This document shows, piece after piece, positions 8,570 to 12,688 of a stretch of 43,527 nucleotides of DNA. Source of the DNA: Spirochaetaceae bacterium. GTDB taxonomy: Bacteria > Spirochaetota > Spirochaetia > DSM-27196 > Alkalispirochaetaceae. Under the pieces are notes generated by a model. That model was not told the origin of the DNA and ran no database searches. It was given only the letters and a program-made list of their open reading frames with translations. Every line of letters begins with the position of its first letter. Positions within the stretch are counted from its first letter, which is position 1. The stretch spans positions 1 through 43,527 of the forward strand of contig REEH01000125.1 of assembly GCA_007695175.1 (NCBI GenBank). Reading direction: 5' to 3'. Both the position numbers and the translations under genes were made by a program.

Positions 8570-9316
8570 TCAGAGCCGCCCCGCCTCGATGATGCGCTGC
8601 AGAAACTGCTGCGTCCGGGGGTTCTCGGGTTTCGCGAAGAGCTTGTCCGGGGGAGCTTCCTCCAGGATGCGCCCCCCTTCCAGAAAGCAGACGCGGTCCG
8701 CCACGTCCCGGGCAAAGCCCATCTCGTGGGTGACGATGATCATGGTCATACCCTTGTCCTTGAGATCCTTGATGATCTTGAGCACACCCCCGATGAGCTC
8801 CGGGTCCAGCGCCGCCGTTACCTCGTCCAGCATCAATACGTCCGGCTGCGTCGCCAGGGCGCGCACGATAGCCACCCGCTGCTGCTGGCCCCCGGAAAGC
8901 CGCTCCGGGTAGGACCGGGCGTATCCCTCCAGTCCGAACATGTTGAGAAGCTCGTGAGCGCGCCGTTCCGCCTCCGCCCGGGTAACTCCATGGACCTTGC
9001 GCGGCGCCAGCGTCACATTGTCCAGCACGTTAATGTGGGGGAAGAGATTGTACGCCTGGAAAACGATACCAACCCGCTTGTGAAGCTCGTTGTTGTTCTT
9101 GAAGTGGTCCGCCGCGATGGAAACGCCGTCCAGGTATATCGTACCGTGATCGAAGGGTACGAGCTTGTTGACGCACCGCAAGAGCGTGGACTTGCCGGAA
9201 CCGGACGCGCCGATCAGGCAGACTACCTCGTGCTCCCTGACGGAGAGGTTCACCGCGTCGAGAACGAGATTCTCTCCATAATACTTGGTAACATTTTCGA
9301 TCCGGATTCGGTCCAT
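8570..9316 (-). CDS. Polar amino acid ABC transporter, ATP-binding protein
   Basis: A 248-residue ABC ATPase of the GlnQ/HisP type. Walker A is GASGSGKST (about residues 36-44), the Q-loop lies in 'VGIVFQAYNLFPHINVLDN', the signature is 'LSGGQQQRVAIVRALA', Walker B is 'VLMLDEVTAALDPE' and the switch histidine is in 'IIVTHEMG'. It would energise the permease encoded directly upstream (13-base gap). A putative AAGGA ribosome site precedes the ATG. It is the last gene of the transporter unit and converges on gnd. GC-rich dyad sequence in the 51-base gap (about 8549-8564) might act as a terminator, but it has no T tract. Confidence 0.96.
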   Translation of the reverse strand: MDRIRIENVTKYYGENLVLDAVNLSVREHEVVCLIGASGSGKSTLLRCVNKLVPFDHGTIYLDGVSIAADHFKNNNELHKRVGIVFQAYNLFPHINVLDNVTLAPRKVHGVTRAEAERRAHELLNMFGLEGYARSYPERLSGGQQQRVAIVRALATQPDVLMLDEVTAALDPELIGGVLKIIKDLKDKGMTMIIVTHEMGFARDVADRVCFLEGGRILEEAPPDKLFAKPENPRTQQFLQRIIEAGRL

Positions 9317-9329
9317 TCGCCGTTTTTCC

Positions 9330-10178
9330 TTACACTGTCCGTTGGAGGCGTCGCTCCTGGTCTTTTCGCGCGACGTAATCGGTAAAACGCGCCATGGGTA
9401 TCGTCGCGGCCAGGAAGAGCAGCGCCGCGGCGATCAGGGAGGAGTAGTTGAACGTCCGGGCGGTATAGATTTGCGCCTCCCGCACCGCGTCGCGCACGCC
9501 TATCACGCTCAGGAGCGCCACGTCTTTCTGCAGTGCAACCGCCAGGTTGAGCAGGGCCGGAAGGACATTCCGAACCGCCTGGGGTACGATCGCATGGCGC
9601 AGGGTTTGCCACTGGGAAAGACCCAGAGCCTTTGCTGCCGCCCGCTGCCCGTCGTGGACCGCTTCCATCCCGGACCGGTACACCTCGGCGGCATAAGCGG
9701 AATACCCCAGCACCATCGCAACGCCGCCCCAGAAAAGACTGCTCCGGGGAAGCCCCGGAATCTGCAACGCCGGAACACCAAACCCGAAAAGCAGCACCAG
9801 CAGGAGCGAGGGCAAGCCCCGAAGAAGATCGATATAGATTATCGAAAAGAGTCGGATCGGAGCGAGCCACGGACCGTGCAGGGAGCGAAAAACCGCCAGA
9901 ACCAGCGCCCAGATCGAGATTGCGACCAGGGCGATCGCCCAGACAGTCATGTTGATCCCGAAGCCCCGCAGCACATTGGGAAAAGCCGCGACAATTGCCT
10001 CGAGATTGAAAAACTGCAGCTTGATGCGGGGCCAATGCTCAGCCGACGTGATCACCCGCCAGAGGCCGCCAAAGACGATCGCGACACTGACAAAGCTGAT
10101 CAGGAACGGTACGTACCGTTCCCGGAAGGTGAGCGTCTGCCGCGCCGGCAACGCCGGCGCGGAACGCTCGGAACTCAA
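9330..10178 (-). CDS. Polar amino acid ABC transporter, permease
   Basis: A 282-residue inner-membrane permease of the HisMQ/GlnP type. The first hydrophobic segment is at about residues 30-50, then 'GFGINMTVWAIALVAISIW' and the family motif region 'YSAYAAEVYRSGMEAVHDGQRAAAKALGLSQWQ', which contains the EAA loop that docks on the ATPase. The arrangement with a single permease suggests a homodimer. Its ATG overlaps the stop of the binding-protein gene by 4 bases. The N-terminal 15-20 residues are polar and rich in Ala/Pro, longer than in many relatives. Confidence 0.94.
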   Translation of the reverse strand: MSSERSAPALPARQTLTFRERYVPFLISFVSVAIVFGGLWRVITSAEHWPRIKLQFFNLEAIVAAFPNVLRGFGINMTVWAIALVAISIWALVLAVFRSLHGPWLAPIRLFSIIYIDLLRGLPSLLLVLLFGFGVPALQIPGLPRSSLFWGGVAMVLGYSAYAAEVYRSGMEAVHDGQRAAAKALGLSQWQTLRHAIVPQAVRNVLPALLNLAVALQKDVALLSVIGVRDAVREAQIYTARTFNYSSLIAAALLFLAATIPMARFTDYVARKDQERRLQRTV

Positions 10179-11038
10179 CGATTGATCTCCGGTATGGAGG
10201 CGTCACCTACAAGGTACTGCCCGACCAGATCATCCACTACGCCCCGGGCGATCACCGTGCTCAGCGCCTCATCAACCCACTCGACCAGGGGATTATCCTT
10301 CTGGAAGAGCAGACCGTGGCCGCGATCATTGGGATCCGCCGGGAGAAGCGCCGTTATGCGCGCTTCCGGGATCTGTACGGCTGTAGCGAAGAGCGCAGTG
10401 GGCAGTGCCACCACCGTCGCATCGATCAGTCCGCCCTGGAGCGCCTGGAACGTACCCACCTGATCGTCATAGACCGCGACATTCTGGACGCCGATGATTC
10501 CTTCGAGATAGTCCAGATCCGTCGTTCCTATAGTCGCACCCCACCGGGCCCGACGGAGGTCGGCGTAGGAACGGGCTCCCTCCACCGCACTGCCCGGCAG
10601 CGCTACCACGGCCTTGTCCGGCTGAAAGTAAACCTGTGAGAATGTGACGATCCGGGAGCGCTCTTCCGTGACGGAAATCTGCTGGATGGCAAAATCGTAC
10701 GGCTTGGGTCCCGGTGCGATCGCCTGGTCAAAGGTCTGACCGACCCATACGACATCCTCCGGGGAAAAGCCCATTTCCTCGGCAAGCGCGTATATCAACC
10801 CGTTCTCAAAACCCTCACCACCGGCAGGATCGTTGTTGAGCATCCACGGGGGATAGACGGGGTCACCCGTTCCGACCGTCAGTTTGCCCGGCTGAAAGAG
10901 ACGCGGGTCATTGACGGTCCGCTCAAGAGCGGACGCATCACCGGCAGGAGCGGCGGATTCCGCACGGCCCGACGCCAGCAGAGGCGCTGCCGCGATTACC
11001 GCCATCAGAACCAGCAGAACCACTTTTTTCCTCACCAT
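10175..11038 (-). CDS. Polar amino acid ABC transporter, periplasmic binding protein
   Basis: A 287-residue solute-binding protein of the bacterial family 3 type. The signal peptide is 'MVRKKVVLLVLMAVIAAAP' followed by LLASGRAES. There is no lipobox cysteine, so a soluble periplasmic protein is expected, as in many spirochaetes. The mature part begins with a Pro/Ala linker and contains 'GKLTVGTGDPVYPPWM' (ligand-site start) and 'YADLRRARWGATIGTT' (hinge region). The ATG at 11038 is selected over the upstream in-frame codons because AAGGGGG lies just before it and the signal peptide begins there. The ligand is unknown. The aminomutase gene 136 bases upstream makes an acidic or beta-amino acid a possibility worth testing. 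Confidence 0.93.
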   Translation of the reverse strand: MVRKKVVLLVLMAVIAAAPLLASGRAESAAPAGDASALERTVNDPRLFQPGKLTVGTGDPVYPPWMLNNDPAGGEGFENGLIYALAEEMGFSPEDVVWVGQTFDQAIAPGPKPYDFAIQQISVTEERSRIVTFSQVYFQPDKAVVALPGSAVEGARSYADLRRARWGATIGTTDLDYLEGIIGVQNVAVYDDQVGTFQALQGGLIDATVVALPTALFATAVQIPEARITALLPADPNDRGHGLLFQKDNPLVEWVDEALSTVIARGVVDDLVGQYLVGDASIPEINR

Positions 11039-11174: not shown

Positions 11175-12572
11175 TCACGCCGTCTCGAAGCTGCTCTCCT
11201 CGTCGCGCAGTTCCGCTTCCCGGGCGAGCACCGCATCCCGCGCCTCCGCCGCGGCAACGCGGGCCCGCATCTCGGGCATGAAAAAGAACTCCTTTTCCCC
11301 GAAGGCCGGTTCCAGCTCGTTGAGCCACGCCGCGTCCTCGCTGTACTTCGCGAAGAAGGGGCGCTGCACCCACTCGGGATTCCGCCCCTGGATCACGCGC
11401 AGAACAAAGACTTTCTCACCCTTGATCTCCGTGACGCCCTGGACCTCAATCTTCCCCGGTGCGGCGGACATGCTCGGCCCCCGGACCGTCCGGCACAATC
11501 CCGAGACGTGCATGATAGCAGCCCGGTAGATTTCCCATGCTCGCGCCAGGGGCACCCGGAAATAGTGGGACGCGCCGGTATTCCGCTCCACGAACATGTA
11601 GTAGGGTATTACTCCGAGCCGCACCTGGGTGCTCCACATTTCCCGCCACACCCCGGTCACATCGTTTATGTGACGCACCAGCGGCGACTGGCTGCGGATC
11701 GCGGCGCCGGTGCTCCTGATACGAGCGATGGCCTTCCTGACCGCTGGTGGCTCAAGCTCCTGAAAATGGTTGAAGTGCGCCATAATCGCCAGGTGAAAAC
11801 CCGATGAGACGATCCGCTCGAAAAGGCGCATGAGATCGTCCGCGTCATCATCGGTGGTGTAGCGGTAGGGCCAGTAGGCCAGCGACTTGGTTCCGATCCG
11901 GATCGTCTGCAGACCGATATTGTCGGCCTTGAGGATGGGATCCAGGTACCGCTCCAGCGCGCGCGTGGACATGACCATGGGGTCACCGCCGGTTATGAGC
12001 AGGTCCGTCACCTCCGGGTGCTGCTCCAGGTATCGCACCAGCTGCCCGCTGTCGGGTGCGGAAAAACGCACCTCCGCATCCGTCAGAAACTGGGGCCACC
12101 GGAAACAGAAGGTGCAGTAGGCGTGACACGTCTGGCCCGACTGGGGAAAGAAGAGCACCGTCTCCCGGTACTTGTGCTGCACACCCTCCAGCCGCTCCGT
12201 CCCGAGCAGGGGGACGTTGAGACTGACCTGGCCGGCAGGATGCGGGTTGAGATCGGAGCGTATGCCCGCAATAAAAGCGCGCAGCTCCTCCTGCGGGGCG
12301 TCCCGCCGGAGCATGTCGGCGATTCTGTCGAAGTTTTCCGGCCGCAGCATGCCGCGCTGCGGTACGGTAAGCTGGTATATCGGATCATCGGGGATCCTGT
12401 TCCAGTCGATGAGCTCGTCCGCCACGTAACGGTTTATCCGAAAGGGGAAAACCTGGGATACAACGCGGATCGCGAAGCGCTCCTCCTCGCTGAGAGTCTG
12501 CAGCTGGGGCAGATCATCCATCGTACGCAGGCTGAATGCCCTGAATTTTGGTCCTGGTACCGTTTGACTCAA
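11175..12572 (-). CDS. KamA-family radical SAM amino acid 2,3-aminomutase, substrate uncertain
   Basis: A 465-residue radical SAM enzyme. The cluster motif CX3CX2C is at Cys149, Cys153 and Cys156 ('CHAYCTFCF'), followed by 'LLITGGDPMVMS', the SAM-binding GGD. The PLP lysine equivalent is probably Lys374 in 'APGKIEV'. In lysine 2,3-aminomutase two aspartates (293 and 330 of the Clostridium enzyme) hold the substrate side-chain amine. By eye they align with Arg330 ('YYMFVER') and Ser367 here, so lysine is an unlikely substrate and an acidic one such as glutamate is conceivable. The start is a TTG at 12572 with GAGGAGG at good spacing. It lies upstream of an amino acid ABC transporter on the same strand. 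Confidence 0.82.
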   Translation of the reverse strand: MSQTVPGPKFRAFSLRTMDDLPQLQTLSEEERFAIRVVSQVFPFRINRYVADELIDWNRIPDDPIYQLTVPQRGMLRPENFDRIADMLRRDAPQEELRAFIAGIRSDLNPHPAGQVSLNVPLLGTERLEGVQHKYRETVLFFPQSGQTCHAYCTFCFRWPQFLTDAEVRFSAPDSGQLVRYLEQHPEVTDLLITGGDPMVMSTRALERYLDPILKADNIGLQTIRIGTKSLAYWPYRYTTDDDADDLMRLFERIVSSGFHLAIMAHFNHFQELEPPAVRKAIARIRSTGAAIRSQSPLVRHINDVTGVWREMWSTQVRLGVIPYYMFVERNTGASHYFRVPLARAWEIYRAAIMHVSGLCRTVRGPSMSAAPGKIEVQGVTEIKGEKVFVLRVIQGRNPEWVQRPFFAKYSEDAAWLNELEPAFGEKEFFFMPEMRARVAAAEARDAVLAREAELRDEESSFETA

Positions 12573-12688
12573 AAAGCCTCCTCAGTTTTTGCCGGCGCCC
12601 GCCGGCATGCGCCCGCCGCCATAGGGCAGGCGGGACGAAATTGTACTCCGGGAATCTGCTACAGGCAAGAGCGAAATATTAACCGTAA
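12573..12688. other. Intergenic stem-loops between the aminomutase and the secreted-protein gene
   Basis: Two GC-rich inverted repeats are present: GCCGGC-GCCC-GCCGGC at 12591-12606, and CCCGCC (12612-12617) with GGCGGG (12629-12634). Neither is followed by a T tract on the minus strand. They could end the purine operon transcript with help from Rho or structure the aminomutase leader. Confidence 0.4.

Follow-up and report, generated by a model that had tools for sequence, protein, structure and literature searches.

Lysine 2,3-aminomutase (LAM) binds its substrate through two aspartates, Asp293 and Asp330 in the structure that served as our reference (PDB 2a5h). In the clostridial glutamate 2,3-aminomutase (EAM) these positions hold Lys and Asn. 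A paper on Moorella also names a glutamate 2,3-aminomutase. In the incednine pathway, beta-glutamate is an intermediate that is decarboxylated by IdnL3; the conversion of L-glutamate to beta-glutamate was assigned to IdnL4 from idnL4 disruption and feeding, while activity in vitro was not seen (PMC11284099). The pretilactam cluster contains a 450-aa 'lysine 2,3-aminomutase' (PlmK), which lies beside a 419-aa aminotransferase dependent on pyridoxal phosphate (PLP) and was assigned as a glutamate 2,3-aminomutase (PMC6631532). Here we describe a KamA-like protein encoded by a 43,527-nucleotide stretch of DNA from a Spirochaetaceae bacterium (contig REEH01000125.1, assembly GCA_007695175.1), referred to below as the window. 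The protein is probably, though by no means certainly, a radical S-adenosylmethionine (SAM), PLP-dependent L-glutamate 2,3-aminomutase of the IdnL4 type found in macrolactam clusters. The clostridial EAM uses the same cofactors and type of chemistry as those proposed for it.

The fold of the protein, its clade, its cysteine motif, the position of its PLP lysine and the exchange of Asp for Arg are established. An AlphaFold2 model built with the family alignment had a pLDDT of 87, and its closest solved fold was LAM (2a5h; Z = 29.4 over 324 residues), followed by an entry with Z = 12.7. The CxxxCxxC motif, a partial TIM barrel and the match to LAM and other radical SAM enzymes place the protein in the radical SAM superfamily, and the coincidence of Lys374 and Arg158 with Lys337 and Arg134 of 2a5h places it among the PLP-dependent LAM-type enzymes. 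For the residue register, the numbering of 2a5h was checked at R112, R116, R134, D293, D330 and K337, and a profile of 68 family sequences was aligned with nine genuine LAM sequences in hhalign; the register is that of this profile alignment. R330 fell on D293, S367 on D330 and K374 on K337, with no gaps through both sites, and an independent MAFFT alignment that included the sister groups returned identical columns. The first-pass annotation had placed Arg330 and Ser367 at the lysine-binding aspartates by eye and had regarded the radical SAM cysteines and the probable PLP lysine as kept. Both statements hold: careful alignment put no acidic residue at either site, and C149, C153, C156 and K374 are invariant in the 68 sequences.

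Arg158, Arg361 and Arg364 are likewise invariant in these 68 members, and Arg330 varies neither among them (68/68) nor in the actinobacterial members. Because Arg330 is conserved over 68 sequences from many phyla, the exchange is not a chance event. An alternative register, in which a single-sequence phmmer alignment to 2a5h set Glu329 on Asp293 by means of compensating gaps, was rejected because position 329 is variable, with Ala or Val replacing Glu in part of the family and Gly or Cys standing there in the sister group, whereas Arg330 never changes.

The protein is KamA-like and lies outside every curated KamA-type equivalog model. It scored 132.2 bits against NCBIfam TIGR00238 (KamA family; cut-off 199.2), and other family members, at 111–148 bits, also fell below this model. 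Scores against TIGR03820 (AblA, lysine) and TIGR04368 (clostridial EAM) were 125 bits (cut-off 525) and 86.8 bits (cut-off 650), respectively. A Pfam search of the aminomutase gave no matches, including none to the LAM_C domain. A maximum-likelihood tree grouped the 23 members sampled into one clade with a support of 100/100 on a very long branch, outside of which fell an Arg-type sister group (~35% identity, rhizobial plasmid genes included) and the Asp-type LAM-like proteins. With LAM (KamA/AblA) the window protein shares the fold, the CxxxCxxC motif, the PLP lysine and the equivalent of Arg134, but it is only ~22% identical, has Arg330 and Ser367 where LAM has its lysine-binding aspartates, and contains an extra N-terminal segment around residues 74–125. 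Like the clostridial EAM it has a positively charged residue at the Asp293 site (Arg, against Lys in EAM), but the second residue, Ser in place of the expected Asn, differs, and the two do not belong to the same subfamily. A search for the clostridial EAM in the phylum found 0 of 198 genomes above the TIGR04368 cut-off.

The case for glutamate begins with a family member from Streptomyces NBC_00334. This protein (443 aa, close to PlmK in length) is 53% identical to the window protein and has the same cysteines, R158, E329, R330, R361, R364 and K374, and hence the Arg330-type active site. Its gene sits between type I polyketide synthase genes, after an iminopeptidase/hydrolase (best PDB match 3wmr, which we take to be VinJ) and before a PLP enzyme of the AT fold. 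An adjacent adenylation enzyme has 5jjq as its best match and is identical to it at 132 of the first 206 positions aligned. The 5jjq entry is IdnL1, which is specific for (3S)-3-aminobutyrate and in which Leu220 sets the substrate size (PMC11253843). If the deposited chain carries a tag of 20 residues, the NBC_00334 enzyme has Leu at this column, where HitB (7dq5, beta-Phe) has Phe and CmiS6 reportedly Gly. A second adenylation enzyme (best matches 8k4r and 6akd) and a malonyltransferase (5czc) fit the known starter-unit set of macrolactam clusters. This is the same kind of cluster as those of incednine and pretilactam, with an IdnL1-like adenylation enzyme, a VinJ-like hydrolase, a malonyltransferase and a PLP enzyme. 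In Amycolatopsis AA4 the family gene is also adjoined by a PLP enzyme, 50% identical to that of NBC_00334. The window protein falls in the same clade (support 100/100) as this aminomutase from a 3-aminobutyrate macrolactam cluster; it differs from the type formed by IdnL4 of Streptomyces sp. ML694-90F3 and by PlmK, which has a homologue with accession ACU36627.1, in that its gene lies outside any biosynthetic cluster and in having Ser, not Val, at position 367.

A separate line of evidence comes from Halomonas and its relatives. At 16 Halomonas-group loci the aminomutase gene directly precedes that of a TAXI solute-binding protein; at most of these loci a fused TRAP permease and a Usp come next. 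The best PDB match of the Halomonas binding protein is 8s4j, the glutamate-specific VcGluP. In the one Halomonas protein checked, the VcGluP ligand residues Y45, S75, Q93, E125 and Y200 are kept and M201 is replaced by V. These 16 genomes are mutually related and represent few independent events. Because a relative lies in a macrolactam cluster and the Halomonas gene has a glutamate-type TAXI neighbour, glutamate is the best-supported substrate.

A mechanism can be proposed in which the reaction follows LAM by analogy and the choice of glutamate follows cluster context and the literature on IdnL4. A [4Fe-4S] cluster on C149/C153/C156 would cleave SAM to give a 5'-deoxyadenosyl radical. L-glutamate would form an external aldimine with PLP, with Lys374 as the lysine of the internal aldimine. 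Arg158 would bind the alpha-carboxylate, and Arg330 the side-chain carboxylate, at the place where Asp293 of LAM holds the lysine amine. Once hydrogen has been abstracted at C3, the imine nitrogen would undergo a 1,2-migration to yield beta-glutamate (3-aminoglutarate). Aspartate, proposed earlier as an assay substrate, would reveal nothing about a 2,3-shift unless it were isotope-labelled, since transfer of its amino group from C2 to C3 yields aspartate again.

Several observations weigh against glutamate as the substrate. The sister group also has Arg at the Asp293 column. Because this Arg is common to the sister group, whose rhizobial genes lie near ectB, it is compatible with an acidic substrate but not diagnostic of one on its own. 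Ser367 carries little weight as evidence for a substrate: it is replaced by Val in six Actinomycetes members on annotated plasmids and in one spirochaete (L014), and is Ser in the Nonomuraea member. The clade would include the IdnL4 type by virtue of cluster context and the literature, not of IdnL4's own sequence. The macrolactam branch is ~50% identical to the window protein, which is low enough for a change of substrate, and no gene using beta-glutamate adjoins the window aminomutase. The first-pass annotation had taken the positive residue as a hint of an acidic substrate. For glutamate this is likely right, mainly on the macrolactam-cluster and TAXI evidence, which that annotation did not have; the argument from the residues by themselves is weaker than it seems.

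Alternatively, the protein would be a 2,3-aminomutase for a different amino acid whose side chain is short and either polar, neutral or acidic (e.g. glutamine, 2,4-diaminobutyrate or alanine), with Arg330 structural or carboxylate-binding across the whole Arg-type group; we regard this as possible, at an appreciable minority chance. Besides the Arg shared with KX and rhizobial sequences of the sister group, it draws on the rhizobial genes near ectB and near biotin-carboxylase/ATP-grasp-like genes, one of them also with an aspartate-semialdehyde dehydrogenase gene, on members in non-ribosomal peptide synthetase (NRPS) and N–N-bond-type clusters, and on the window's ABC binding protein, which is closest, weakly, to glutamine-type proteins. 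However, glutamate is favoured both by the macrolactam cluster of the 3-aminobutyrate kind and by the TAXI partner of the glutamate type, and a very long branch parts the family from the sister group. The Arg-type KamA proteins found in other spirochaetes and on rhizobial plasmids (L016–L021, L176, L177) share with the window protein Arg at the Asp293 site and the HKY...T and MSxxxGK motifs, but are only ~35% identical, have CR or GR where the window protein has ER, carry Ile or Ala at the Asp330 column and have other neighbours.

It is improbable that the protein is not an aminomutase at all and performs other radical SAM/PLP chemistry on the LAM fold, for example as an epimerase, a lyase or a peptide-modifying enzyme. 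The long branch to all other KamA-type proteins, the replacement of LAM Arg112 and Arg116 by Lys134 and Thr138, the missing LAM_C domain and the absence of reported in vitro activity for IdnL4 would agree with such a role, but the checkable catalytic elements of LAM are kept and members recur in clusters that require beta-amino acids. To our knowledge, activity in vitro has been shown for no enzyme of the clade. Lysine as the substrate, with Glu329 or some other residue holding its amine, is very improbable: it is suggested by the label of the plasmid records and by the one phmmer alignment, but both aspartates are gone, an invariant Arg occupies the amine site, Glu329 gives way to Ala or Val in part of the family, the AblA model scores far below its cut-off, and true LAMs in the phylum retain both Asp residues.

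The window gene and its surroundings are listed in Table 1. The aminomutase is encoded on the minus strand, which the first-pass annotation had not specified. The stop codon of the aminomutase occupies positions 11175–11177 and the first base of its TTG start is 12572; relatives start at about the same position. The gene for the solute-binding protein has an ATG start and its own ribosome site, 136 nt past the aminomutase stop, and no terminator was predicted in this 136-nt gap. The ABC amino acid transporter is a possible partner of the aminomutase, and its binding protein had weak, glutamine-type PDB matches only. This synteny is retained in one genome, G002; in the other spirochaetes read, no such match lies beside the gene. 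An operon partner conserved across phyla was not found, neighbours being kept only within groups of close relatives.

Table 1. Coordinates of the aminomutase gene, its annotated codons and the adjacent transporter genes (positions in the window).
Feature	Position	Strand	Remarks
ABC transporter ATP-binding protein	8570..9316	minus	same system as the solute-binding protein
ABC transporter permease	9330..10178	minus	same system as the solute-binding protein
Family 3 solute-binding protein, polar amino acid ABC transporter	10175..11038	minus	Pfam SBP_bac_3
Aminomutase coding sequence (P0001), KamA-fold radical SAM/PLP	11178..12572	minus	465 aa, TTG start
Lys374 codon	11451..11453	minus	at LAM Lys337 (PLP lysine)
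Ser367 codon	11472..11474	minus	at LAM Asp330; Ser or Val across the family
Arg330 codon	11583..11585	minus	at LAM Asp293
Arg158 codon	12099..12101	minus	at LAM Arg134 (substrate carboxylate)
C149xxxC153xxC156, [4Fe-4S]/SAM motif	12105..12128	minus	invariant, 68 sequences
Lys134 codon	12171..12173	minus	at LAM Arg112; invariant HKY motif
Shine–Dalgarno-like GAGGAGG	12577..12583	minus	4 nt ahead of TTG

The family is present in 16 of the 46 genomes of the window's order, and the phylum sample outside this order contained more distant KamA proteins only. A scan of the collection returned at least 582 related genome stretches, the best 80 of which include Halomonas, Marinobacter, Ectothiorhodospira, Thioalkalivibrio, Rhodocyclaceae, Binatia, Bacteroidetes and Dehalococcoidia. 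Plasmid-borne members with 50–57% identity occur in Streptomyces, Nonomuraea, Amycolatopsis, Nocardia, Rhodococcus, Mycetohabitans and Burkholderia, and are mostly labelled lysine 2,3-aminomutase. In genome G002 there is a second paralogue (L161:7337-8644), 45% identical, with Lys and Thr in place of Arg361 and Arg364. After a gap of 6 nt comes the gene for a flavodoxin/ferredoxin-reductase-like protein of 541 aa, which could plausibly supply the iron–sulfur cluster with electrons.

Five viral contigs from IMG/VR (L125–L128 and L130) carry a 55–56% identical member amid genes common to all five (e.g. L125:4998-6263); L129 is a further viral contig. In L125 the gene lies directly upstream of that for the terminase large subunit (PHROG E-value 1e-105). 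The viral-contig member is probably phage-borne and possibly an auxiliary metabolic gene. Among named phages in the phage collection, distant KamA relatives only were found, with 23–30% identity.

Other members lie in biosynthetic clusters of different kinds. On plasmid pDK3 of Rhodococcus sp. DK176 (L169/L175), a member stands in a row with genes for a cupin, a luciferase-like monooxygenase, a PvdA-like N-hydroxylase, a MetRS-like ligase and a saccharopine-dehydrogenase-like protein, an arrangement that resembles N–N bond (hydrazine) biosynthesis with a beta-amino acid. In Streptomyces NBC_01431 (L163/L174) a member directly follows NRPS genes, and in S. cellulosae (L167) one lies beside dpgABCD genes; the peptide products of these loci likely contain a beta-amino acid. 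In the sister group, the KamA genes of two rhizobial plasmids (L176 and L177) lie near ectB and ATP-grasp/biotin-carboxylase-like genes, together with the aspartate-semialdehyde dehydrogenase gene in L176; this uncharacterised cluster may have diaminobutyrate or a beta-amino acid as its building block.

Most uncertain is the cell's use of beta-glutamate, whether as an osmolyte, as a precursor or otherwise. The first-pass annotation had suggested a compatible solute suited to a saline habitat, which for this spirochaete is speculative. The window's proteins are of ordinary acidity (median isoelectric point 6.1, acid/base ratio 1.08), ectoine synthase was not found in this genome, and many carriers of the family are non-halophiles. 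Beta-glutamate is an osmolyte of methanogens, rarely reported in bacteria, and nuclear magnetic resonance data argued against an aminomutase route in methanogens (PMC1224877). In Nitrosopumilus maritimus it is the most abundant identified metabolite, at 730 mM, and it increases with ocean depth (PMC8269262). We put forward, as a tentative and rather doubtful proposal, that the family serves marine and halophilic bacteria as a main beta-glutamate synthase, making an inert osmolyte from imported glutamate, and that marine tailed phages carry a host-derived copy as a metabolic gene. If this were true, a solute whose producers among bacteria are scarcely known would gain a named biosynthetic gene.

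The family is widespread and functionally unnamed, its annotators' name being lysine 2,3-aminomutase. It offers many enzymes from outside the actinomycetes in which to seek the activity not seen with IdnL4. If the family makes beta-glutamate, a stable non-protein amino acid and archaeal osmolyte, then the lysine label would be wrong across Halomonas, Marinobacter, spirochaetes, actinomycetes and some phages, and it would become testable which organisms produce this compound in saline and marine settings.
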